The position numbers were made by a program, and so were the translations under genes. Shown here piece after piece: positions 11,905 through 26,912 of a stretch of 64,000 nt of DNA. Position 1 is the first letter of the stretch; each line of letters starts with the position of its first letter. The stretch is taken from positions 124,001 through 188,000 of the forward strand of contig NZ_VZOW01000001.1 of the NCBI RefSeq assembly GCF_008801835.1, in the 5' to 3' direction. The notes under the pieces are model-generated. The model worked only from the letters and a program-made list of their open reading frames with translations, was not told where the DNA came from and searched no databases. The stretch is from Cupriavidus pauculus. GTDB lineage: Bacteria > Pseudomonadota > Gammaproteobacteria > Burkholderiales > Burkholderiaceae.

Positions 11905-13527
11905 ATGGCATTGATGGGTCAAATGATGAGCGCGCCGCTGCTCATTTCCTCCATCATCAAGCACGCTGCACGCTACTACGGCAGCACGGAAATCGTCTCG
12001 CGGCGAACCGAAGGTGATCTGCATCGCTATACCTATCGGGACTGCGAGCTGCGCGCGCGCAAGCTGGCGCAGGCGCTGGGGGCGCTGGGCGTGCAGCAGG
12101 GCGACCGGGTGGGCACGCTGGCGTGGAATGGCTACCGTCACCTCGAGATCTACTACGGCGTGTCCGGCATGGGCGCGGTCTGCCATACCGTCAATCCGCG
12201 GCTGTTTCCCGAGCAGATCGCCTACATCGTCAATCACGCCGACGACCAGTACGTGTTCTTCGATGCCACGTTCCTGCCGCTGGTGGAAGGCGTGGCGCCG
12301 CATTGCCCGAACGTGAAGGGCTGGGTGATGATGAGCGACCGCGCGCACATGCCGGTCGATCCAAAGGTTCCGCTGCTCTGCTACGAGGATCTGATCGACG
12401 CGCAGGACGGCGACTACACGTGGCCCGATCTCGACGAGAACCAGGCGTCCAGCCTTTGCTATACGTCGGGTACCACGGGCAATCCGAAGGGCGCGCTGTA
12501 TTCGCACCGCTCGACGGTGCTGCATTCCTATGCGTCGGCGCTGCCCGATGCACTGGGCTGCTCGGCCAAGGACGTGATCCTGCCGGTGGTGCCGATGTTC
12601 CATGTCAACGCATGGGGTCTGCCTTATTCGGTGCCGCTGGTCGGCGCGAAGCTGGTGTTCCCGGGCGCCCGGCTCGACGGCGCATCGCTTTACGAATTGT
12701 TCGAGCAGGAAGGCGTAACGTTCTCCGCCGGCGTGCCGACGGTGTGGCTTGGCCTGCTGCAGTATGTGCAGTCGAACAAGCTCAAGTTCTCGACTTTCCG
12801 CCGCACCGTGATCGGCGGCTCCGCCGCGCCGCCGGCGATGATCCGCGCACTCGAGGCGCTGGACGTGGAAGTGATCCACGCCTGGGGCATGACCGAGATG
12901 TCGCCGCTGGGCACATCGTGCAAGCTGCTGGCGCGACACAAGGACCTGCCAGAGGATGCCCGCCACAAGATCCTGGAAAAACAGGGCCGCGTGATCTACG
13001 GCGTCGACATGAAGATCGTCGACGGCGAGGGCAACGAATTGCCCTGGGACGGCAAGGCGTTCGGCGATTTGCTGGTGCGCGGCCCGTGGGTCATCGACCA
13101 CTACTATCGCAACGACAACAATCCGCTGGTCGATGGCTGGTTCCCGACCGGGGACGTGGCCACGATCGACGAGGAAGGCTACATGCAGATCACGGACCGC
13201 AGCAAGGACGTGATCAAGTCGGGGGGCGAGTGGATTTCGTCGATCGACGTCGAGAACGTGGCCGCCGCGCATCCGGCGGTGCACATGGCCGCGTGCATTT
13301 CCGCCTATCACCCCAAATGGGACGAGCGCCCGCTGCTGGTGGTGGTCAAGCGCGCCAACATGGATGTCACGCGCGAGGAACTGCTGGCTTTCTTCGAGGG
13401 CAAGGTGGCCAAATGGTGGATTCCGGACGACGTGGCGTTCGTGACCGAGATTCCGCTGACCGCAACCGGCAAGATGCAGAAGCTGAAGCTGCGCGAACAG
13501 TTCAAGGACTACAGGCTGCCCGCCTGA
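11905..13527 (+). CDS. Acyl-CoA synthetase (AMP-forming), DmdB/medium- to long-chain type
   Basis: A 540-residue ANL-superfamily ligase that activates a carboxylic acid to acyl-CoA through an acyl-adenylate. The P-loop [11 protein letters not shown] is near residue 190. A5 is W-G-M-T-E-M-S, A7/A8 is W-F-P-T-G-D-V, then the [17 protein letters not shown] hinge, with the catalytic C-terminal Lys in T-A-T-G-K-M-Q-K. It most resembles the DmdB (methylthiopropionyl-CoA ligase) and fatty-acyl-CoA ligase group; the substrate cannot be fixed from sequence. The LIV-type ABC importer starts 142 bp downstream on the same strand, suggesting the imported acid is activated here. Confidence 0.93.
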
Positions 13528-13669
13528 AGCCGCACCGGCCTGCGTCGCAGCGGCGCCGGGCTGTCGCGGTGGTTCGATCCTGAAGAAATGACCGGATATG
13601 CTGCCGCCCGCGCGAGGAGGGCGTTGGCGGCTGCTATCGGCCAACCACAATAACGTGAAGGAGACAGGT

Positions 13670-14920
13670 ATGACGAAGTTGCGTCCGCTGGTAAACGGTG
13701 TGGCAGCAGTAGTTGCTCTGGGTTCCGTGCTGGTTTCGGGAGTGGCGGCGGCCGATACGGTGAAGATCGCCTTCATCGATCCGCTGTCGGGACTGATGGC
13801 CCCGGTCGGGCAGAACCAGCTCAAGAGCTGGCAATACGTGGCCGATGTCGCCAATCAGAAGAACTGGGCCGGCGCGCACAAGTTCGAGGTGGTGGGCTTC
13901 GACAACAAGCTCAGCCCGCAGGAAAGCCTGACGATCCTGAAGCAGGCGGTCGACCAGAACATCCGCTATATCGTCCAGGGCAACGGATCGTCGGTGGGGT
14001 TGGCACTTGAAGACGCGGTGGCCAAGCACAACGAGCGCAATCCGGGCAAGGAAATCGTCTACCTGAACTACGCGGCGGTGGACCCGGACATGACCAACAG
14101 CAAGTGCAATTACTGGCATTTCCGTCTCGACGCCAATTCGGATATGAAGATGGAGGCCCTGACCACGTTCCTGGCCAAGGATCCGGCGGTCAAGAAGGTC
14201 TACCTGATCAACCAGAACTATTCGTTCGGCCACCAGGTGGCGCGCGCGGCGAAGGATTACCTGAAGCGCAAGCGTCCCGACATCCAGATCGTCGGCGACG
14301 ACCTGCATCCGCTGGCGCAGGTGAAGGACTTCGCGCCGTACGCGGCCAAGATCAAGGCATCGGGCGCCGACACGGTGATCACCGGCAACTGGGGCAGCGA
14401 CCTCGCGCTGCTGATCAAGGCCGGCAAGGACGCCGGCCTGCCGGTCAACTACTACACCTACTACGCGGCTACCACCGGCGTGCCGACGGCGATGGGCGCG
14501 TCGGGCGCCGAACACGTCAAGTACGTCGGCTATTACAACCCGAACAATCCGACGTTCCGCGGCGGCGACATCGTCGAGGGCTTCAAGAAGAAGTACAACG
14601 ACGACTTCTACGTGATGGCCTCGTACACGGGCATCGCCATGCTGGCCAAGGCCATGAAGGAGACCGGCTCGACCGATCCGGTCAAGGTGGCCAAGGCGCT
14701 GGAAGGCATGAAGGTGGAGAGCATGAACGGCACCGTGGAGATGCGTAACACCGACCACCAGGCGCAGCAGCCGCTGGTCGTTGCGACGTGGACCAAGGTC
14801 AACGGCAAGGACATCAAGTTCGACCAGGAAAACACTGGTTATGGCTGGAAGACCGACGCCGCGCTCGACCAGTTCGTCGCGGCGCAGCCGACGTCGTGCC
14901 AGATGAAGCGGCCGAACTGA
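13670..14920 (+). CDS. LIV-type ABC transporter, periplasmic substrate-binding protein
   Basis: A 416-residue periplasmic binding protein of the LivJ/LivK fold. It has a signal peptide of about 25 residues ending near VAAA, then the type I PBP core: V-K-I-A-F-I-D-P-L-S-G, N-G-S-S-V-G-L-A-L, and I-T-G-N-W-G-S-D-L. The start at 13670 (MTKLRP) is preceded by GAAGGAGACAGGT. Homologues bind branched-chain amino acids, but many in this order bind aromatic or aliphatic acids. The acyl-CoA ligase upstream favours an acid. It is first in a five-gene cassette with both permeases and both ATPases. Confidence 0.93.
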   Translation: MTKLRPLVNGVAAVVALGSVLVSGVAAADTVKIAFIDPLSGLMAPVGQNQLKSWQYVADVANQKNWAGAHKFEVVGFDNKLSPQESLTILKQAVDQNIRYIVQGNGSSVGLALEDAVAKHNERNPGKEIVYLNYAAVDPDMTNSKCNYWHFRLDANSDMKMEALTTFLAKDPAVKKVYLINQNYSFGHQVARAAKDYLKRKRPDIQIVGDDLHPLAQVKDFAPYAAKIKASGADTVITGNWGSDLALLIKAGKDAGLPVNYYTYYAATTGVPTAMGASGAEHVKYVGYYNPNNPTFRGGDIVEGFKKKYNDDFYVMASYTGIAMLAKAMKETGSTDPVKVAKALEGMKVESMNGTVEMRNTDHQAQQPLVVATWTKVNGKDIKFDQENTGYGWKTDAALDQFVAAQPTSCQMKRPN

Positions 14921-14941
14921 CGCCCGGGCCACATGCGGTAC

Positions 14942-14967
14942 GGGGTTCCGCCTTGCGCCGGAACCCC
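14942..14967 (+). other. Intercistronic stem-loop between binding protein and permease
   Basis: GGGGTTCCG pairs perfectly with CGGAACCCC across an eight-base loop, without a following T-tract. Hairpins placed here in binding-protein operons can protect the upstream mRNA 3' end, or cause partial termination, so that binding protein outnumbers permease. That role is inferred from position. Confidence 0.55.
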
Positions 14968-15028
14968 TGACAATATGGCTTTTGCCGGGTCAGACGCCGG
15001 CGCCTGAATAAGGCCCTGAGGACTTGCC

Positions 15029-15976
15029 GTGGAATTCTTTGTCATATCGCTACTGAACGGCATCAGCTACGGCTTGCTGCTATTCATGCTGTCGTCGGGA
15101 CTTACGCTGATCTTCAGCATGATGGGCGTGCTCAACTTCGCGCACGCCAGCTTCTACATGCTGGGCGCCTACTTCGCCTATACGCTGGCCGGCAAGGTCG
15201 GCTTCTGGCCCGCACTGATCCTGGCGCCGCTGCTGGTGGCCGGGGCAGGCGCGCTGGTGGAACGCTTCGGGCTGCGCACGGTGCACAAGTACGGCCACGT
15301 GGCCGAGCTGCTGTTTACGTTTGGGCTCGCTTATCTGATCGAGGAGGGCGTCAAGCTGGTGTGGGGGCTGGCCGCCGTGCCGTATCGGATCCCTGCCGAA
15401 CTCGACGGCCCGCTCTTCACAGTGTTCACTTCGTCGTTCCCGAAGTACCGCGCCTTCATGATGCTGGTGTCGCTCGGCATGCTGTTGGCGATCTATCTGG
15501 TGCTGACGCGCACCCGCATCGGGCTGGTCATCCAGGCCGCGCTGACCCATCCCGAAATGGTCGAGGCGCTGGGCCACAACGTACCGCGCGTATTCATGAT
15601 GGTGTTTGGCGGCGGTGCGGCGCTTGCCGGGCTGGCCGGCGTGATCGGCGGCAACGCGTTCGTCACCGAGCCGTCGATGGCGGCCGCGGTGGGATCGATC
15701 GTCTTCGTGGTCGCCGTGGTCGGCGGCATGGGTTCACTGGTCGGCGCGTTTATCGCGTCGATCCTGATCGGCGTGCTGCAGACGTTCGCGATCACCGTTG
15801 ACGCATCGCTGGCCGGCCTGTTCGGCGCACTCGGCATGACGGTCACGGCCGCCACGCCATTCAGCTCGCTGTGGAACCTTACCGTGGCCCAGGTGGCACC
15901 GGTGCTGCCCTATCTGCTGATGGTGGTGATGCTGATTTTCCGCCCACGCGGGCTCATGGGCACCCGGGAGAGCTAG
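15029..15976 (+). CDS. LIV-type ABC transporter permease, LivH family
   Basis: A 315-residue integral membrane permease with about eight hydrophobic segments. It starts M-E-F-F-V-I-S-L-L-N-G-I-S-Y-G-L and carries the usual G-L-T-L-I-F-S-M-M-G-V-L-N-F-A-H motif. The cytoplasmic E-A-L-G-H-N loop likely docks the ATPases. It pairs with the LivM homologue 3 bp downstream. Confidence 0.94.
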   Translation: MEFFVISLLNGISYGLLLFMLSSGLTLIFSMMGVLNFAHASFYMLGAYFAYTLAGKVGFWPALILAPLLVAGAGALVERFGLRTVHKYGHVAELLFTFGLAYLIEEGVKLVWGLAAVPYRIPAELDGPLFTVFTSSFPKYRAFMMLVSLGMLLAIYLVLTRTRIGLVIQAALTHPEMVEALGHNVPRVFMMVFGGGAALAGLAGVIGGNAFVTEPSMAAAVGSIVFVVAVVGGMGSLVGAFIASILIGVLQTFAITVDASLAGLFGALGMTVTAATPFSSLWNLTVAQVAPVLPYLLMVVMLIFRPRGLMGTRES

Positions 15977-15979
15977 GCG

Positions 15980-17293
15980 ATGGAGTCGACGACGATGCAA
16001 CAAAGCCCGCAACCGGTTGTGACGGGACGCACCATGCGCTACCAGCCGATGAATCTGGCGCGCTGGATCATCTGGAGCGCCACGGCCCTGGTGATGCTGG
16101 TGATGCCGCTAATCTTCACGGGCGGTTTCGCCGTGACGCTGATGTCGCAGATGGGCATCATGATCATTTTCGCGCTGTCGTACAACATGCTGCTCGGGCA
16201 GACCGGCATGCTGTCCTTCGGGCACGCCGTGTATTCGGGCCTCGGCGCGTTCATCGCAGTGCACGTGCTGAACATGGTGGGCGCCGGCAAGGTCTGGCTG
16301 CCCGTGTCGATGCTGCCGCTGGTGGGCGGGCTGGCGGGCGCGTTCTTCGGCGTGGTGTTCGGTTACGTCACCACCAAGAAGTCCGGCACCACCTTCGCGA
16401 TGATCACCATGGGGATCGGCGAGATGGTCTTCGCCAGTTCGCTGATGTTCCCGGATTTCTTCGGCGGCGAAGGCGGCATTTCCACCAACCGCGTGGTTGG
16501 CGATCCGTTCCTGGGCATCACGTTCGGCCCGGGGCGCCAGGTGTACTACCTGATCGCGATCTGGTGCTTCCTGTCGATGGTGGCGATGTATGCCTGGACG
16601 CAGACGCCGCTCGGCCGCATTGCCAATGCCGTGCGCGACAATCCCGAGCGCGTCGAATTCATCGGCTACAACACCCAGCGCGTGCGATACCTGGTGCTGA
16701 TCCTGTCGGCATTCTTCGCCGGCATCGCAGGTGCGCTTTCCGCGATCAACTTCGAAATCGTCTCGGCAGAAAATGTCAGCGCGGTGCGTTCGGGCGGCGT
16801 GCTGCTGGCGGCCTTTATCGGCGGCGCGGGCGTGTTTTTCGGCCCGGTGATCGGCGCGATCGTCTTCACGCTGTTCGCGGTGGCGTTGTCGGATCTGACG
16901 AAGGCGTGGCTGCTGTACCTGGGCCTGTTCTTCGTGATGATGGTGATGTTCGTGCCCGGCGGTATCGCCAGCCTGCTGCTGATGCAGGTGCCGCTGCTGG
17001 CCAGGAAAAAACTGGGCCGCATGCTGCCATCGTATGCGCAGGCCGGCGCCGCGGGGCTGGTGCTGCTGGCCGCCACGATCCTGACCGTCGAAATGATCTA
17101 CAAGGTGCAGGTCGATAGCGCCAACGGGACCGCCATGACGCTGCTGGGCATTGGATTCGACGCCGCCACGCTGACCCCATGGATCGTGGCCGCGGCGTTG
17201 TGGGGCATCGGTTATGCCGCATGGCGATGGGCCGGCGCGAAGGTGCGTGCGCAACTGGACGCCATCCAGGCGGAAACGGGAGGCGTGGCATGA
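15980..17293 (+). CDS. LIV-type ABC transporter permease, LivM family
   Basis: A 437-residue permease with the LivM core: Y-N-M-L-L-G-Q-T-G-M-L-S-F-G-H, G-R-I-A-N-A-V-R-D-N-P-E-R-V-E-F-I-G-Y (EAA-like ATPase contact), and S-A-I-N-F-E-I-V. About 100 residues after the core hold two more hydrophobic segments (around 355-375 and 395-415), longer than a plain LivM. The stop overlaps the next start by ATGA, so translation is coupled to the first ATPase. Confidence 0.92.
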   Translation: MESTTMQQSPQPVVTGRTMRYQPMNLARWIIWSATALVMLVMPLIFTGGFAVTLMSQMGIMIIFALSYNMLLGQTGMLSFGHAVYSGLGAFIAVHVLNMVGAGKVWLPVSMLPLVGGLAGAFFGVVFGYVTTKKSGTTFAMITMGIGEMVFASSLMFPDFFGGEGGISTNRVVGDPFLGITFGPGRQVYYLIAIWCFLSMVAMYAWTQTPLGRIANAVRDNPERVEFIGYNTQRVRYLVLILSAFFAGIAGALSAINFEIVSAENVSAVRSGGVLLAAFIGGAGVFFGPVIGAIVFTLFAVALSDLTKAWLLYLGLFFVMMVMFVPGGIASLLLMQVPLLARKKLGRMLPSYAQAGAAGLVLLAATILTVEMIYKVQVDSANGTAMTLLGIGFDAATLTPWIVAAALWGIGYAAWRWAGAKVRAQLDAIQAETGGVA

Positions 17294-18066
17294 CGGCCGC
17301 ACTGGAATTGAACGACGTTCGCAAACGCTTCGGGCAGACCGAAATCATCCGTGGCGTCACGCTGTCGATTGGCAAGGGCGAGCGGCACGCGCTGATCGGG
17401 CCGAACGGCGCGGGAAAATCGACCACGTTCAACCTGATCTCGGGCCGCTTCGCGCCGACTTCGGGCACGGTCAAGCTTAACGGGCAAAGCATTGCCGGCA
17501 TGCGCCCGTTCGAGATCAACCGCATGGGGCTGTCGCGCAGCTTCCAGATCACGAACATCTTTCATCGCCTGAGCGTGTTCGAAAACCTGCGCTGCGCGGT
17601 GCTATGGTCGCTGGGCTACAAGTATTCGTTCTGGCATCGCCTGGCGGCGCTGCGCGATGCGCGCGAGCGCGCCGAGGAGGTGCTGGAACTGATCGGCATG
17701 CAGCATCGACGCCAAACGCAGGCCGGGCTGCTGACCTACGCGGAACAACGCGCGCTGGAAATCGGCATCACCATCGCCGGCGGCGCAGAGGTGATCCTGC
17801 TCGACGAACCCACGGCGGGCATGAGCCGGTCGGAATCGGATCACGCTGTCGAACTGATCCGCAAGGTGACGGTCGGCAAGACGCTGGTGATGGTGGAGCA
17901 TGACATGAGCGTGGTGTTCGGCCTGGCGGACCGCATCTCCGTGCTGGTCTACGGCGAGGTCATCGCCACCGATACGCCGCAGGCGATCCGCAACAACCGC
18001 AGCGTCAAGGAAGCTTATCTCGGCACTACGCTGGACGAGCCGGCCGTCGAAGGAGCGCACGCATGA
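17290..18066 (+). CDS. LIV-type ABC transporter ATP-binding protein, LivG family
   Basis: A 258-residue ABC ATPase with an intact Walker A (G-P-N-G-A-G-K-S-T-T), Walker B (V-I-L-L-D-E-P-T-A-G) and H-loop (V-E-H-D-M). The ABC signature is non-canonical: at the LSGGQ position it reads L-L-T-Y-A-E-Q-R, a form common in LivG-like proteins. The start is the ATG at 17290, overlapping the LivM stop; longer reading of the frame runs into LivM. The next ATPase overlaps its end by four bases. Confidence 0.94.
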   Translation: MTAALELNDVRKRFGQTEIIRGVTLSIGKGERHALIGPNGAGKSTTFNLISGRFAPTSGTVKLNGQSIAGMRPFEINRMGLSRSFQITNIFHRLSVFENLRCAVLWSLGYKYSFWHRLAALRDARERAEEVLELIGMQHRRQTQAGLLTYAEQRALEIGITIAGGAEVILLDEPTAGMSRSESDHAVELIRKVTVGKTLVMVEHDMSVVFGLADRISVLVYGEVIATDTPQAIRNNRSVKEAYLGTTLDEPAVEGAHA

Positions 18067-18776
18067 GCCAGCCCATGCTGGAAGTTTCCGGGCTGCATGC
18101 CTACTACGGCAAGAGCCACATCCTGCACGGCGTCGATGCGCACGTCGACACGGGCGAGATCGTGGCGCTGCTGGGACGCAATGGCGTCGGTCGCTCGACC
18201 ATGGCCAAGGCCATCCTGGGGATGGTGAAGGCCGAAGGGTCGGTACGGCTGCGCGGCGAAGAAATCCTCGGTCGCCGCACCTTCGAGATCGCCCATGCCG
18301 GCATCGGCTACGTCCCGGAGAACCGCGACATCTTCCCCACCCTGACCGTGCGCCAGAACCTGCTGCTCGGCGAAAAGCGCAATCCACGGCAGGCCAAGCC
18401 GCGCTGGAGCGTGGACGACATGTACCGCATGTTTCCACGGCTGAAGGAGCGCGAGCACACTGCCGCGGGCGTTCTGTCCGGTGGCGAGCAGCAGATGCTG
18501 ACGCTGTGCCGCACTCTGATGGGCGATCCCGATCTGATCCTGATCGACGAGCCGACCGAGGGCCTGGCGCCAATGATCGTGACGCTGGTGGGAGAATTCC
18601 TGAAGACCCTCAAGGAGCGGGGCGTGTCGGTGCTGCTGATCGAACAGAAGCTGGCGATTGCACTCGACATCTCGCAGCGTGTCTACGTGATGGGCCACGG
18701 GCACATCGTGTTTGAAGGATCGCCCGCCGAACTCAAAGCCAACACGCAAATCCGCAAGGAATGGCTCGAAGTCTGA
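18063..18776 (+). CDS. LIV-type ABC transporter ATP-binding protein, LivF family, with Arg in Walker A
   Basis: A 237-residue ABC ATPase, last gene of the importer cassette. It has L-S-G-G-E-Q-Q signature, Walker B D-L-I-L-I-D-E-P-T-E-G and H-loop-region L-L-I-E-Q-K. The Walker A reads G-R-N-G-V-G-R-S-T, with Arg44 where Lys is expected; the codon is CGC at 18192-18194. This may be a lineage trait of one subunit of a heteromeric pair, or reduce ATP hydrolysis at one site. The final stop is followed closely by a terminator that faces the other way. Confidence 0.93.
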   Translation: MSQPMLEVSGLHAYYGKSHILHGVDAHVDTGEIVALLGRNGVGRSTMAKAILGMVKAEGSVRLRGEEILGRRTFEIAHAGIGYVPENRDIFPTLTVRQNLLLGEKRNPRQAKPRWSVDDMYRMFPRLKEREHTAAGVLSGGEQQMLTLCRTLMGDPDLILIDEPTEGLAPMIVTLVGEFLKTLKERGVSVLLIEQKLAIALDISQRVYVMGHGHIVFEGSPAELKANTQIRKEWLEV

Positions 18777-20720: not shown

Positions 20721-20853
20721 TGACCCGCTTTCAAGCCGGAGGGCTTGTGCGGCAAGGGATTGCGGGGCACAAACAGAACCCACCCGCATCCTGGCGGTAC
20801 CTACATTCGAGAATTCGAATCCCGAGACAAAAACTTCATCAAAGGAACGCGTT

Positions 20854-22935
20854 ATGACAGCGCAGTATCAGGTTCAGGACGGCGTAGCCGTTATCACGCT
20901 CGACAATCCCCCCGTCAACGGCCTCGGTCACAGTACCCGCCTGGGCATCGTCGAAGGCTTGACCCGTGCGCTGGATGATGCGGCCGTCAAGGCAGTGGTC
21001 ATCACCGGCGCCGGCAAGGCTTTTTCGGGCGGCGCCGACATCCGCGAATTCAACACGCCGAAGGCGACGCAGGAGCCGACGCTGCATTCGGTGATCCGCG
21101 CGCTGGAAGCCTCGACCAAGCCGGTCGTGGCGGCGATCCACTCGGTGGCCATGGGCGGCGGACTGGAACTGGCGCTGGGCTGCAACTATCGCGTGGCCGC
21201 CAAGGGCGCGCAGATCGCACTGCCCGAGGTCAAGCTCGGCCTGCTGCCGGGCGCCGGCGGCACGCAGCGCCTGCCGCGTCTGATCGGGCTGGAGCACGCG
21301 CTCAACATGATCGTGTCCGGCACCGCGATTCCGTCGGAAAAGTTTGCCGGCTCGAAGCTGTTCGACGAAGTAGTCGACGGCGACGTGCTGCCCGCCGCAG
21401 TCAAGTTTGCGCAGAGCGTGGCGGCTGCGCCCGGCCCGCACCCGAAGGTGCGCGACCTGAAGGTGCGCCACGAAAACCCGGAAGGCTTCCTGGCCTTTGC
21501 GCGCAATACCGTGGCCGCCGTGGCCAAGAATTTCCCGGCGCCGGCCAAGTGCGTGGACGCCGTGGCGGCCTCGCTCAAGCCGTTCGAGGCCGGCCTGAAG
21601 GAAGAACGCGAAGGCTTCATGTACCTGGTCGGCACGCCGGAATCGCGCGCGCTGCGCCATGCGTTCTTCGGTGAGCGCGCCGCCAGCAAAATTCCCGATG
21701 TGCCCGAAGGCACGCCGGTGCGCAAGATCGAGAAGGTGGCCGTGATCGGCGCCGGCACCATGGGCGGCGGCATCACCATGAACTTCCTGAACGCAGGCAT
21801 CCCGGTGACGATGCTGGAAACCAAGCAGGAAGCGCTCGACCGCGGCGTGGGCATCATCCGCAAGAACTACGAGAACAGCGCCAAGAAGGGCAAGCTGACG
21901 CAGGAAAAGGTCGAGCAGCGCATGGGCCTGCTGACCACCACGCTGTCCTATGACGATATCAAGGACGCCGACCTCGTCATCGAGGCCGTGTTCGAGGAAA
22001 TGGGCGTCAAGGAAACGGTGTTCAAGAAGCTGGACGAAGTGATGAAGGACGGTGCGATCCTGGCCTCCAACACGTCCACGCTGGACGTGAACAAGATTGC
22101 CTCGTTCACGCGCCGCCCGCAGGATGTGGTGGGCATGCACTTCTTCAGCCCTGCCAACGTGATGAAGCTGCTGGAAGTGGTGCGCGGCGAGAAGACCGCC
22201 AAGGACGTGCTGGCCACCGTCATGCAACTCGGCAAGAAGATCAAGAAGACGGCCGTGGTGTCGGGCGTCTGCGACGGCTTTATCGGCAACCGCATGATCG
22301 AGCAGTACAGCCGTCAGGCCGGGTATCTGCTGGACGAGGGCGCGCTGCCCGAACAGGTCGACAAGGCGATCGAGAAGTTCGGCTTTGCGATGGGCCCGTT
22401 CCGCATGGGCGATCTGGCCGGCAACGACATCGGCTGGGCCATCCGCAAGCGCCGCGCCGTGGACAAGCCGGACATCCAGTATTCGAAGACCGCCGACAAG
22501 CTTTGCGAACTCGGCCGCTTCGGCCAGAAGACCGGCGCCGGCTGGTACGACTACAAGGCGGGCGACCGCAAGCCGTACCCGAACCAGCAGGTCAACGACA
22601 TGATCGTCGAGCATTCCAAGGAACTCGGTATCACGCGCCGCAAGATTTCCGACGAGGAAATCGTCGAGCGCCTGGTGTTCGCGCTGGTCAATGAAGGCGC
22701 CAAGATTCTGGAAGAAGGCATCGCGTCGAAGGCTTCGGACATCGACATGGTTTACCTGACCGGCTACGGTTTCCCGCTGTTCCGCGGCGGCCCGATGCTT
22801 TACGCGGATCAGGTCGGCCTGTTCAACGTGGCCCAGTCGATGAAGCGCTACGCCAAGGGTTATCACGGCGAAGCCTGGCAGGTTGCCCCGCTGCTGCAAA
22901 AGCTGGCGGACGAAGGCAAAGGCTTCAACGGCTGA
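20854..22935 (+). CDS. Bifunctional enoyl-CoA hydratase / 3-hydroxyacyl-CoA dehydrogenase (FadB/FadJ-like)
   Basis: A 693-residue fusion that hydrates enoyl-CoA and oxidises 3-hydroxyacyl-CoA with NAD+. The crotonase domain (about 1-185) has F-S-G-G-A-D-I-R-E-F and M-G-G-G-L-E-L-A-L-G-C-N-Y-R, with the glutamate of L-P-E-V-K-L-G. The NAD-binding fold starts near residue 295 (V-I-G-A-G-T-M-G-G-G-I). The dehydrogenase has H-F-F-S-P-A-N-V-M-K-L-L-E-V. The start at 20854 follows AAAGGAACGCGTT; upstream in-frame sequence is not family-like. Thiolase and acyl-CoA dehydrogenase genes follow, giving a full beta-oxidation set. Confidence 0.96.
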   Translation: MTAQYQVQDGVAVITLDNPPVNGLGHSTRLGIVEGLTRALDDAAVKAVVITGAGKAFSGGADIREFNTPKATQEPTLHSVIRALEASTKPVVAAIHSVAMGGGLELALGCNYRVAAKGAQIALPEVKLGLLPGAGGTQRLPRLIGLEHALNMIVSGTAIPSEKFAGSKLFDEVVDGDVLPAAVKFAQSVAAAPGPHPKVRDLKVRHENPEGFLAFARNTVAAVAKNFPAPAKCVDAVAASLKPFEAGLKEEREGFMYLVGTPESRALRHAFFGERAASKIPDVPEGTPVRKIEKVAVIGAGTMGGGITMNFLNAGIPVTMLETKQEALDRGVGIIRKNYENSAKKGKLTQEKVEQRMGLLTTTLSYDDIKDADLVIEAVFEEMGVKETVFKKLDEVMKDGAILASNTSTLDVNKIASFTRRPQDVVGMHFFSPANVMKLLEVVRGEKTAKDVLATVMQLGKKIKKTAVVSGVCDGFIGNRMIEQYSRQAGYLLDEGALPEQVDKAIEKFGFAMGPFRMGDLAGNDIGWAIRKRRAVDKPDIQYSKTADKLCELGRFGQKTGAGWYDYKAGDRKPYPNQQVNDMIVEHSKELGITRRKISDEEIVERLVFALVNEGAKILEEGIASKASDIDMVYLTGYGFPLFRGGPMLYADQVGLFNVAQSMKRYAKGYHGEAWQVAPLLQKLADEGKGFNG

Positions 22936-22961
22936 TACCGACGACGTGAATCGGAAGGCAT

Positions 22962-22995
22962 AGGGAACAGGGAATAGGAAATAGGGATCAGGACC
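22962..22995 (+). repeat. Imperfect heptamer repeat (AGGGAAY-type) at the ribosome-binding site
   Basis: Five head-to-tail units of about seven bases: AGGGAAC, AGGGAAT, AGGAAAT, AGGGATC and AGGACC, ending directly at the ATG at 22996. The units themselves supply the Shine-Dalgarno sequence of the nicotinamidase-like gene. Copy-number change by slippage would shift this site's strength or spacing without altering the reading frame. Confidence 0.8.
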
Positions 22996-23664
22996 ATGGC
23001 CTACGGCGCGCAGGATTGCCTGCTGGTGATCGATGTTCAGAACGACTTCATGCCGGGCGGCGCGCTTGCCGTGCCGTGTGGCGATGAGGTGGTGAGCGTT
23101 GTGAACCGGCTGGCAAGCGCGTTCGAGCATGTGGTGCTGACGCAGGACTGGCATCCGGCGGGGCATGCGTCGTTTGCCGCCAGCCACGCCGGCGCAACGC
23201 CGTTCCAGACCATCATGCTGCCGTACGGCGAGCAGGTGCTGTGGCCCGAGCATTGCGTTCAGGACACGCACGGCGCGGCGTTGCATGCGGACCTGCATGT
23301 GCCGCATGCCCGGCTGTTGATCCGCAAGGGTCATCATGCCGGCGTCGACAGCTATAGCGCGTTCGTGGAAGCGGACAGGACCACCCGCACCGGATTGGCG
23401 GGATACCTGCGCGAACACGGCGTGCGCCGGGTGGTGTGCGTCGGACTGGCAACGGATTTCTGCGTGGCCTGGAGCGCGCTCGATGCGCGCGCCGCGGGCT
23501 TCGATGCGGTGGTGGTGGAGGACGCGTGCCGGGCGATCGATCTGGATGGATCGCTCGACCGGGCATGGCGAGCGCTCGCCGATGCCGGTGTCGAACGCAC
23601 GACATCTGAAGCGCTGCTGTCCGCTGCCGCCCGTCAGCACAATCCCTGGCTGCCCGAATCCTGA
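22996..23664 (+). CDS. Nicotinamidase-type cysteine hydrolase (isochorismatase fold, PncA-like)
   Basis: A 222-residue hydrolase, likely nicotinamide to nicotinate for NAD salvage. The catalytic triad is visible: Asp13 (I-D-V-Q-N-D-F), Lys111 (I-R-K-G-H) and Cys156 (T-D-F-C-V). The metal-binding pattern D-W-H-P-A-G-H (Asp51, His53, His57) and a W-P-E-H-C-V-Q segment are PncA hallmarks. It lies between fadB-like and thiolase genes, an odd partner for beta-oxidation except as an NAD supply gene. Translation starts from a heptamer-repeat region. Confidence 0.9.
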   Translation: MAYGAQDCLLVIDVQNDFMPGGALAVPCGDEVVSVVNRLASAFEHVVLTQDWHPAGHASFAASHAGATPFQTIMLPYGEQVLWPEHCVQDTHGAALHADLHVPHARLLIRKGHHAGVDSYSAFVEADRTTRTGLAGYLREHGVRRVVCVGLATDFCVAWSALDARAAGFDAVVVEDACRAIDLDGSLDRAWRALADAGVERTTSEALLSAAARQHNPWLPES

Positions 23665-23745
23665 AACCTTCACGCACGGCCGATACCGCATCCACCGAAT
23701 ATTTCTCGCAGTTAGCAGAGACACCAAGATACCGAGGAGCAACAC

Positions 23746-24924
23746 ATGAACGAAGCTGTCATCGTATCCACGGCCCGCACCGGGCTGGCCAAGAGCTGGA
23801 AGGGCGCCTTCAACATGACCCACGGCGCCACGCTGGGCGGCCATGCCGTGCAGCACGCGATTGCGCGCGCCAAGATCGAAGCGGGCGAAGTGGAAGACGT
23901 GCTGATGGGCTGTGCCAACCCTGAAGGCGCCACCGGCGCCAACATCGCGCGCCAGATCGCCCTGCGCGCCGGCTGCCCGGTGACCGTGCCCGGCGCCACC
24001 GTGAACCGCTTCTGCTCGTCCGGCCTGCAGACCATCGCCATGGCCGCGCAACGCGTGATCGCCGACGAAGGCGACATCTTCGTGGCCGGCGGCGTGGAAT
24101 CGATCTCGTGCGTGCAGCAGGAGATGAACCGCCACATGATCCAGGAAAGCTGGCTGAACAAGAACAAGCCGGAAATCTACTGGAGCATGCTGCAGACCGC
24201 CGAGAACGTCGCCAAGCGCTACAACATCCCGAAGGAGCGCCAGGACGAGTACGGCGTGCAGAGCCAGTTGCGCGCCGCAGCTGCCCAGGAAGCCGGCAAG
24301 TTCAAGGACGAGATCGTGCCGATCACGGTGCTGGCCGGCGTAGCCGACAAGGCAACCGGCCAACTGATGACGCGCGAAGTCACCATTGACGCCGACGAAG
24401 GCATCCGCGCCGACACCACGCTGGAAGGCGTCTCGAAGATCCGCACCGCAATGCCGGGCGGCGTGATCACGGCCGGGAACGCCTCGCAGTTCTCGGATGG
24501 CGCGTCGGCCGCCGTGGTGATGAACGCGCGCGTGGCGGCCGCCAAGGGCCTGCAGCCGCTGGGCGTGTTCCGCGGCTTTGCCGTGGCCGGTTGCGAGCCC
24601 GATGAAATGGGCATCGGCCCGGTGTTCGCGGTGCCCAAGCTGCTCAAGAAGACCGGCCTCAAGGTCGAGGACATCGGCCTGTGGGAACTGAACGAAGCGT
24701 TCGCCGTGCAGGTGCTGTACTGCGCCGACAAGCTGGGCATCCCGATGGATCGCCTGAACGTTAACGGCGGCGCGATCGCCGTGGGCCACCCGTATGGCGT
24801 GTCCGGCGCGCGTCTGGTCGGCCACGCGCTGATCGAAGGCAAGCGCCGCGGCGTCAAGTACGTCGTCGTGACGATGTGCATCGGCGGCGGCCAGGGTGCT
24901 GCCGGCCTGTTCGAAGTTCTGTAA
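23746..24924 (+). CDS. Acetyl-CoA acyltransferase / thiolase (FadA-like)
   Basis: A 392-residue thiolase that cleaves 3-ketoacyl-CoA to acetyl-CoA and a shortened acyl-CoA (or condenses two acetyl-CoA). The active residues are Cys90 (N-R-F-C-S-S-G), His348 (G-H-P-Y-G-V-S-G) and Cys378 (C-I-G-G-G-Q-G-A-A). It lies downstream of the fadB-like gene and probably works with it. A GAGGAGCAACAC site precedes the ATG. An intrinsic terminator follows 36 bases after the stop. Confidence 0.95.
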
Positions 24925-24960
24925 TGCCTGCCGGGCCTGCGCGGCCCGGTACACGCTTTT

Positions 24961-24996
24961 CACGCCTTTCCCGCACGCCGGGGAAGGCGTGATTTT
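24961..24996 (+). terminator. Intrinsic terminator after the thiolase gene
   Basis: A 13-bp stem (24961-24973 with 24979-24991, one G-U pair) closed by a five-base loop and followed by ATTTT. It separates the thiolase transcript from the acyl-CoA dehydrogenase gene, though read-through is possible because the T-run is short. Confidence 0.7.
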
Positions 24997-25052
24997 CCAT
25001 CCCTTGCGACGGCTGTCTGCCGCGCAGTTTTCAGCCCGGAGTCACTTCTCCC

Positions 25053-26912
25053 ATGTCGCTGATTCTCTCCCGCCGTGATCTCAATTTCGTCCTGTACGAA
25101 TGGCTGAAGGCCGAGTCACTGACGCAGATTCCCCGCTACGCAGATCATTCGCGCGAAACTTTCGACGCCGCGCTCGATACCTGCGAGAAAATCGCCACCG
25201 ATCTGTTCGCGCCACACAACAAGAAAAGCGACGCGCAGGAGCCGCATTTCGATGGCGAAACGGTCACCATCATTCCCGAAGTCAAGGTCGCGCTGAAGGC
25301 ATTCTGCGAGGCCGGCCTGATGGCGGCGGGGCAGGACTACGAGTACGGCGGCATGCAATTGCCGGTGACGCTGGAAAAAGCCGCATTCGCGTACTTCAAG
25401 GCCGCCAACGTCGGCACCAGCTCATATCCGTTTCTGACCATCGGCAATGCAAACCTGCTGCTGACCCACGGCACGCCGGCGCAGATCGATACCTTCGTGC
25501 GACCGGAACTGGAAGGGCGGTTCTTTGGCACGATGTGTCTCTCGGAGCCGCAGGCGGGTTCGTCGCTGTCCGACATCACCACGCGCGCCGATTACGAGGG
25601 CGAATCGCCGCTAGGCCAGCAATACCGGCTGCGTGGCAACAAGATGTGGATCTCGGCCGGCGAGCACGAATTGTCGGACAACATCGTGCATCTGGTGCTG
25701 GCCAAGATCCCCGGCCCGGATGGCAAGCTGATCCCTGGCGTGAAAGGCATCTCGCTGTTCATCGTGCCGAAATTCCTGGTCAACGAGGACGGGTCGCTCG
25801 GCGAGCATAACGATGTCGTATTGGCCGGCCTGAACCACAAGATGGGCTATCGCGGCACGACCAATTGCCTGCTGAACTTCGGCGAAGGCATGAAATACCG
25901 CCCGAACGGCAAGGCAGGCGCCATCGGTTATCTGGTGGGCGAGCCGCACAAGGGCCTGGCCTGCATGTTCCATATGATGAACGAGGCGCGCATCGGCGTC
26001 GGCCTGGGCGCCGTCGCGCTGGGCTATACCGGCTACCTGCATGCGCTCGATTACGCGCGCAATCGCCCGCAGGGCCGCCCGATGGGCCCGCAAGGCAAGG
26101 ATCCGGCGTCGCCGCAGGTCAAGCTGGTCGAACATGCCGATGTACGCCGCATGCTGCTGGCGCAAAAGAGCTATGTGGAAGGCGGACTGGCGCTGAATCT
26201 CTATTGCGCGCGGCTGGTGGACGACGAACACGCCGCCAAGGCGGCCGGGCAGGCCGATCGACAGCGCGAGCTTTCGCTGCTGCTCGATATCCTCACGCCG
26301 ATCGCCAAGAGCTGGCCGTCGCAGTGGTGCCTGGAAGCCAACAACCTGGCGATCCAGGTGCATGGCGGCTATGGCTACACACGCGAATATAACGTCGAGC
26401 AGTTCTATCGCGACAATCGCCTCAACCCGATCCATGAAGGCACGCATGGCATTCAGGGTCTGGACCTGCTGGGCCGCAAGGTCGTGATGCAGGATGGCGC
26501 CGCGTTCCAGCTGCTCGGCAAGCGGGTGCAGGCCACCTGCGAACAGGCGGCGAACAGCGGCGACGCCACGCTGGGCGAGCAGGCCCGCGCGCTCGGCGCG
26601 GCCACCGCGCGGCTGGCCGAAGTCACGCGCACCTTGTGGGCGGCCGGCGATCCGAACGTGACGCTGGCCAACGCATCGGTCTATCTCGAAGCGTTCGGCC
26701 ACGTCGTGGTGGCGTGGATCTGGCTCGAACAGGCGCTGGTGGCGCACGCCGCGATGGCGTCGGCCCAGGGCGACGAAGCCGACTTCTATCGCGGCAAGCT
26801 GGCGGCCACTGCGTATTTCTTCCGCTTCGAACTGCCCAGGATCTACCCGCAGCTCGATCTGCTGGCATCGCTCGATCGCACCACGCTCGACATGCAGGAC
26901 GCCTGGTTTTAA
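25053..26912 (+). CDS. Acyl-CoA dehydrogenase (large, DmdC/FadE5-like)
   Basis: A 619-residue FAD acyl-CoA dehydrogenase, larger than the usual ~380 because of N- and C-terminal extensions found in the DmdC (methylthiopropionyl-CoA dehydrogenase) and FadE5-like group. Visible: M-C-L-S-E-P-Q-A-G-S-S-L-S-D (FAD contact), W-I-S-A-G-E-H, Q-V-H-G-G-Y-G-Y-T-R-E-Y-N-V-E-Q-F-Y-R-D (C-terminal core). The N-terminus (M-S-L-I-L-S-R-R-D-L-N-F-V-L-Y-E-W-L) is typical. It introduces the alpha-beta double bond for the hydratase/dehydrogenase and thiolase upstream. Substrate length is not deducible. Confidence 0.94.
   Translation: MSLILSRRDLNFVLYEWLKAESLTQIPRYADHSRETFDAALDTCEKIATDLFAPHNKKSDAQEPHFDGETVTIIPEVKVALKAFCEAGLMAAGQDYEYGGMQLPVTLEKAAFAYFKAANVGTSSYPFLTIGNANLLLTHGTPAQIDTFVRPELEGRFFGTMCLSEPQAGSSLSDITTRADYEGESPLGQQYRLRGNKMWISAGEHELSDNIVHLVLAKIPGPDGKLIPGVKGISLFIVPKFLVNEDGSLGEHNDVVLAGLNHKMGYRGTTNCLLNFGEGMKYRPNGKAGAIGYLVGEPHKGLACMFHMMNEARIGVGLGAVALGYTGYLHALDYARNRPQGRPMGPQGKDPASPQVKLVEHADVRRMLLAQKSYVEGGLALNLYCARLVDDEHAAKAAGQADRQRELSLLLDILTPIAKSWPSQWCLEANNLAIQVHGGYGYTREYNVEQFYRDNRLNPIHEGTHGIQGLDLLGRKVVMQDGAAFQLLGKRVQATCEQAANSGDATLGEQARALGAATARLAEVTRTLWAAGDPNVTLANASVYLEAFGHVVVAWIWLEQALVAHAAMASAQGDEADFYRGKLAATAYFFRFELPRIYPQLDLLASLDRTTLDMQDAWF

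Follow-up and report, generated by a model that had tools for sequence, protein, structure and literature searches.

Does an arginine at the Walker A lysine position of a LivF-type ATPase leave a LivG/LivF pair with one impaired nucleotide site, or is it a variant tolerated within a lineage? The question is raised by a gene of Cupriavidus pauculus found at positions 18063-18776 (plus strand) of the window, i.e. the whole stretch of 64,000 nucleotides analysed here, and the original prediction, made from the DNA letters, had offered both answers.

The LivF/LivG pair and its transporter genes

The open reading frame is uninterrupted and encodes a LivF-type ABC ATPase of 237 aa, for which the closest solved structure by sequence is 1JI0 (E = 1.7e-54). 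Its P-loop (GRNGVGRST) is read directly as G38-R-N-G-V-G-R44-S-T, codon 44 (18192-18194, plus strand) being CGC, and the predicted arginine is indeed encoded. When the genome's 12 top-ranking LivF matches are compared, the window gene alone has Arg and the other 11 have Lys. The start of livF overlaps the stop of the upstream gene (ATGA), which codes for the partner, a LivG-type ABC ATPase (17290-18066, plus strand). According to its sequence and to the pair alignment, this protein has the normal Walker A that had been announced for it (GPNGAGKST), and residues K43, Q86, D172, E173 and H204 are present.

The further claim that all other motifs were intact does not hold. Alignment to LptB, by which the Q-loop and switch positions of LivF were fixed, places Glu86 (codon at 18318-18320, in YVPENRD) against the Q-loop Gln of LptB and Gln195 (codon at 18645-18647, in LLIEQKL) against its switch His. 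The signature of the partner LivG (17731-17751, LTYAEQR, located by alignment) reads LTYAEQ and not LSGGQ, Ala151 occupying the place of the second Gly. The signature of LivF itself, LSGGEQQ (18474-18494; like the preceding features, on the plus strand), is canonical in both the sequence and the pair alignment. Given the standard head-to-tail geometry of ABC dimers, the Walker A of LivF should face the signature of LivG, which would bring R44 opposite the degenerate LTYAEQR, and LSGGEQQ should complete the ATP site of LivG. A sequence search with the LivH permease gave no solved relative, hence no structure of a HAAT complex for comparison.

Upstream of the ATPases, and on the same strand, lie genes for a periplasmic substrate-binding protein of the HAAT type (13670-14920; PRK15404 profile), with its start taken at an internal ATG of the ORF 13598-14920, a LivH-type permease (15029-15976; UrtB/LivH profiles) and a LivM-type permease (15980-17293; UrtC/LivM profiles), all three matching their profiles below curated cut-offs. 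The gene set expected of a HAAT-type pair, in which LivG and LivF are neighbours and are accompanied by two permeases and a binding protein, is present (genes 13670-18776). By NCBIfam profile both ATPases belong to the Liv/Urt class, but neither reaches the curated cut-offs for LivF, LivG, UrtE and UrtD. LivF is assigned neither to the E. coli-type LivF equivalog (NF008626; 182 bits, curated cut-off 441) nor to the urea transporter protein UrtE (TIGR03410; 221 bits, curated cut-off 285.8).

Distribution and origins of Arg44

Relatives were gathered under strict E-value limits from overlapping genome samples at three ranks (order, 300 genomes; class, 369; phylum, 398), and extra loci came from the best 80 of a longer list of matches in named records, so that the sampling is uneven. 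More pairs were added by querying genome samples, again overlapping, with the LivG protein and a second LivF. After removal of identical copies, 284 LivF/LivG pairs were reduced to 240 distinct ones; four loci yielded no pair (L010, L011, L012 and L119). Hereafter, R1 denotes the Arg pairs at least 53% identical to the window LivF (lowest member, 54.9%), R2 the other 26 Arg pairs, and K the 69 Lys pairs; R2 and all K pairs are less than 50% identical to the window LivF.

Across the 240 pairs, residue 44 is Arg in 171 (145 R1 and 26 R2) and Lys in 69. Scored in this LivF alignment, Arg is anything but rare and scattered: it occupies the position in all 145 pairs that reach at least 53% identity, and Lys in none of them. 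The codon used in R1 is CGC in 102 pairs, CGT in 28, CGA in 8, CGG in 6 and AGG in 1, and the dN/dS of LivF measured against eight Cupriavidus orthologues is 0.06-0.12. Because Arg is invariant despite this codon turnover and dN/dS is low, the Arg44 change is old and maintained by purifying selection. A sequencing error, a frameshift or a pseudogene, in favour of which nothing was found, can be set aside with near certainty, as 145 distinct pairs carry Arg, the ORF is whole and dN/dS is low.

The lineage-variant half of the original prediction is borne out to the extent that Arg is fixed in R1. The Burkholderiales, whose homologues it had proposed to align, are too narrow a frame: the R1 records comprise 71 named Betaproteobacteria and 1 named member of the Gammaproteobacteria, and 12 of the 145 pairs, all from the remaining genomes, belong to other classes of the phylum, which rules out an R1 restricted to Burkholderiales. 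The 26 R2 pairs all come from the window's own class, about half of the matches from one LivF search having been examined, and 47 of the 69 K pairs come from classes other than that of the window.

The relationship between the two Arg groups was assessed by building a tree from 105 of the 240 distinct pairs (41 R1, 18 R2 and 46 K), with residue 44 and the LivG signature columns blanked; the method was a quick one, and the tree contains long branches among some K rows. The sampled R1 and R2 form two separate groups, with SH-aLRT values of 100 and 98. On this tree two changes suffice for residue 44, and the fourth position of the LivG signature needs three, the two extra ones being single K rows. 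An AU test was run on 69 of these rows, namely 20 from R1, 12 from R2 and, after exclusion of nine K rows with long branches, 37 from K. It rejects the gathering of all Arg rows into one clade (p = 2.2e-7) and thereby rules out a single origin of Arg. The data support two separate K-to-R changes in LivF.

When the DNA of 150 genomes was scanned for GRNG-x-GR[ST] encoded with CGN codons, 16 of them gave a total of 20 matches; the corresponding Lys pattern occurred in 114. Four of the 20 matches belong to R1, all beside an LTYAEQ LivG, and eight to R2, all beside a LivG with the Gly; four lie in another ABC ATPase (four genomes of one genus) and four match no ABC ATPase, so that the pattern detected no LivF-type Arg outside R1 and R2 in these 150 genomes. 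The 12 LivF cases are not new evidence for the pairing, since the window and already sampled genomes are included among them. The other ATPase (loci L319-L322, minus strand, around position 1500) carries GRNGAGRS and is 27-29% identical to LivF at the three of four loci where a long match exists, the fourth giving a short match only; it is possibly a third appearance of a Walker A Arg.

Composition of the two ATP sites

The residue that should face R44 is altered throughout R1: position 4 of the LivG signature (residue 151) is Ala in 131 of the 145 pairs, Ser in 14 and Gly in none. The same position is Gly in 67 of the 69 K pairs and in all 26 R2 pairs. In K pairs, 52 columns of the two proteins reach 97% conservation; R1 has lost three of them, namely LivF K44, LivG G151 and LivG P166, the first two being the residues that should face each other. 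At a 95% threshold, five of 58 conserved columns are lost (the additional ones being LivF L161 and LivG A19). The sole loss in R2, whichever threshold is applied, is K44. R1 is nevertheless set apart from the K pairs by 23 distinguishing columns, 12 in LivF and 11 in LivG. As the combination of Arg44 with loss of the signature Gly arose on one branch only, which these 23 columns separate from the K pairs, it is one event (n = 1) and not repeated covariation. Moreover, a strict coupling of the two changes as a general rule is ruled out by R2, in which Arg coexists with the Gly in 26 of 26 pairs; Arg therefore does not require loss of the signature Gly.

R2 has changes of its own. The D-loop Ala176 of LivG is replaced by Gln in 26/26 pairs (1/69 K pairs), and Pro164 of LivF, after the Walker B Asp-Glu, by Ile in 26/26 (0/69 K pairs); loci L227, L256 and L173 are examples carrying both. 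The lone K pair with Gln176 bears an R2-like YGRKR signature, for which reason the LivG change may have preceded Arg in the R2 lineage. A separate observation concerns L007 and L008, paralogues from the window's own genome with Lys-type pairs: the aligned position 4 of their LivG signature is Val or Glu, which may reflect misalignment or further degenerate sites.

LivG K43, Q86, D172, E173 and H204 are invariant in the 240 pairs, as are S139, G140 and G141 of the LivF signature and the catalytic Walker B Glu of LivF, E163, which is hence kept in all 171 Arg pairs. R1 LivF shows no variation at the A-loop Tyr15, the Walker A glycines or Walker B, and, residue 44 aside, its only deviation at the tabulated Walker A residues is one T46S. 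The Q-loop position of LivF is Glu in 236 of 240 pairs and its switch position is other than His in 238, which makes Glu86 and Gln195 usual for the LivF class sampled here. The Walker A and facing-signature changes of R1 thus come on top of a LivF site that was already non-standard across the sampled pairs, the LivG site having stayed standard.

Our preferred reading, to which we assign a probability of about 0.6, is that LivF and LivG form the ATPase heterodimer of an importer of the HAAT type, in which one nucleotide site is consensus and hydrolysing and the other degenerate. Hydrolysis would take place at the consensus site, to which LivG contributes its Walker A Lys, its Q-loop, its Walker B Asp/Glu and its switch His, and LivF its LSGGEQ. 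The degenerate site would consist of the Walker A Arg, Q-loop Glu and switch Gln of LivF together with the L[TS]Y[AS]xQ of LivG. From these motifs we infer ATP occupancy and a lack of turnover at the LivF site, which would probably hold ATP or shape the dimer without a useful turnover rate. The predicted single impaired site is thus reinforced on one side, by a LivG signature that should complete the same composite site but lacks its second Gly and by the unchanged key residues of the other site, and weakened on another, by the R2 pairs that have Arg with this Gly intact. Of the features associated with degenerate sites, an altered facing signature is found in 145/145 R1 pairs (Ala or Ser at LivG 151, with the geometry assumed to be standard), and an altered Walker B Glu, which is frequent but not required, is absent, E163 being invariant. 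The retention of this Glu and the positive charge that Arg preserves count against a degenerate site.

These last two features are what one would expect if Arg were a tolerated variant that binds the phosphates as Lys does, in which case the LivF site would still bind and hydrolyse ATP and the LivG change would be unrelated drift. The invariant Walker B Asp/Glu of LivF, the near-complete retention of the other Walker A residues in R1 and the union of Arg with the signature Gly in all R2 pairs agree with such tolerance; it is harder to reconcile with the total lack of Lys among 145 pairs of at least 53% identity, and with a signature Gly that is kept in 67 of 69 K pairs but missing from every R1 pair when few other conserved columns have changed. 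In human ABCG8, furthermore, Arg111 belongs to a site dispensable for transport (PMC8403869). We regard a merely tolerated variant as unlikely, though well short of negligible.

A more drastic possibility is that Arg abolishes ATP binding at the LivF site, as proposed for ABCG8, and that the importer cycles on a single bound ATP. The Arg-bearing P-loop of ABCG8 is described as displaced and its ATP binding as markedly decreased (PMC8403869), but Tyr15, the Walker A glycines and the Walker B of LivF are invariant in R1, on which grounds the LivF site may still hold nucleotide; we consider complete loss of binding improbable.

Known degenerate sites and the genomic setting

Degenerate sites, including one with a Walker A Arg, are already known, and the heterodimer proposed here most resembles nucleotide-binding site 1 (NBS1) of human ABCG5/ABCG8, where a Walker A Arg in one NBD (Arg111 of ABCG8, in GSSGCGRAS) and a degenerate signature in the partner (ISTGE of ABCG5) meet in one composite site; scrambling that site leaves sterol export unimpaired (PMC7756502, PMC8403869, PMC7756269). 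According to PMC8403869, no other degenerate site of a mammalian ABC transporter has this Arg, and a review reports signature changes in all human degenerate sites (PMC7756269). ABCG5/ABCG8, however, is an exporter of another subfamily, and its ABCG5 signature lacks the first Gly of LSGGQ, whereas R1 LivG lacks both (Tyr, then Ala or Ser). The likeness of R44 and LTYAEQ to this arrangement is one of pattern, not of family, and would be convergent.

Closer relatives, the Liv and Urt pairs of the HAAT class (LivF/LivG and UrtE/UrtD), share with the window the gene set and the LSGGEQ, Q-loop Glu and switch Gln of LivF, the latter two also seen in 1JI0, but the 69 K pairs have a LivF Walker A Lys and 67 of them retain the second signature Gly of LivG. 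RbsA and NupO of B. subtilis are likewise described as bacterial importers with one degenerate ATP site that lacks the Walker A Lys, although they are fused tandem NBDs of another importer class (PMC11466899). TAP, TM287/288 and Pdr5 combine one consensus with one degenerate site and show signature changes; in this group the Walker B Glu is often altered, unlike in LivF, and Pdr5 has Cys in Walker A (PMC7756269 for all but TM287/288).

In the literature searched, to which most subscription journals do not belong, we found no description of a LivF with Arg in Walker A, nor of a bacterial importer in which such a site is fixed throughout a clade and Arg has arisen twice. We give about even odds to the broader proposition that a whole HAAT clade, situated beside acyl-CoA ligase and beta-oxidation genes in most sampled Burkholderiales loci, runs on one catalytic site, that it reached the ABCG8/ABCG5 solution independently, and that a second HAAT clade adopted Arg again, there with the D-loop Ala to Gln change in LivG. 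The degenerate ATP sites in the publications examined are mostly those of exporters. Here, one class of bacterial importers offers a natural series on the same scaffold, Lys with Gly, Arg with Gly (R2) and Arg with Ala or Ser (R1), from which one may ask which change silences the site and what purpose a silenced site serves. The series also provides a bacterial counterpart to the Arg of ABCG8, one that may lend itself more readily to purification.

Downstream of the transporter, within window positions 20848-26912, profile searches identified a FadB/FadJ-like protein, which stays below the curated cut-offs, and a thiolase, which exceeds that of PRK07108. After their genes comes an ORF resembling acyl-CoA dehydrogenases, a label given on its sequence only. 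An acyl-CoA ligase gene (11905-13527, plus strand) lies 5' of the binding-protein gene in the same direction. In many Burkholderiales loci the transporter occurs together with matches to the downstream genes. Each of the 55 named loci that span 16 kb or more contains a binding-protein match; 44 contain a ligase match (in 42 of them encoded on the same strand and at least 40% identical), and 46 a beta-oxidation gene. The 15 more distant R1 loci include 11 with a binding protein, 2 with a ligase (1 of these on the same strand) and 2 with a beta-oxidation gene. Owing to this scarcity, the acyl-CoA link belongs to the nearer Burkholderiales R1 and not to the whole clade; there, the adjoining acyl-CoA genes suggest that the substrate is a carboxylic acid activated by CoA.

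A transposon study of beta-proteobacteria reports that the ABC transporter with tags RS12600-20 is needed for pimelate in Ralstonia, that the tag of a pimeloyl-CoA ligase, RS12625, comes next, and that C. basilensis has a homologous transporter (PMC12543098). That these are five genes with a neighbouring ligase is read from the tag numbers in that source, and the pimelate transporter is only a lead as a counterpart of the window operon, to which the tags could not be matched. The window ligase scores 1072 bits against PRK07008, above the curated cut-off of 822 for 3-(methylthio)propionyl-CoA ligase, and also passes two broader models of long-chain acyl-CoA ligases; these matches may bear on the substrate of the importer.
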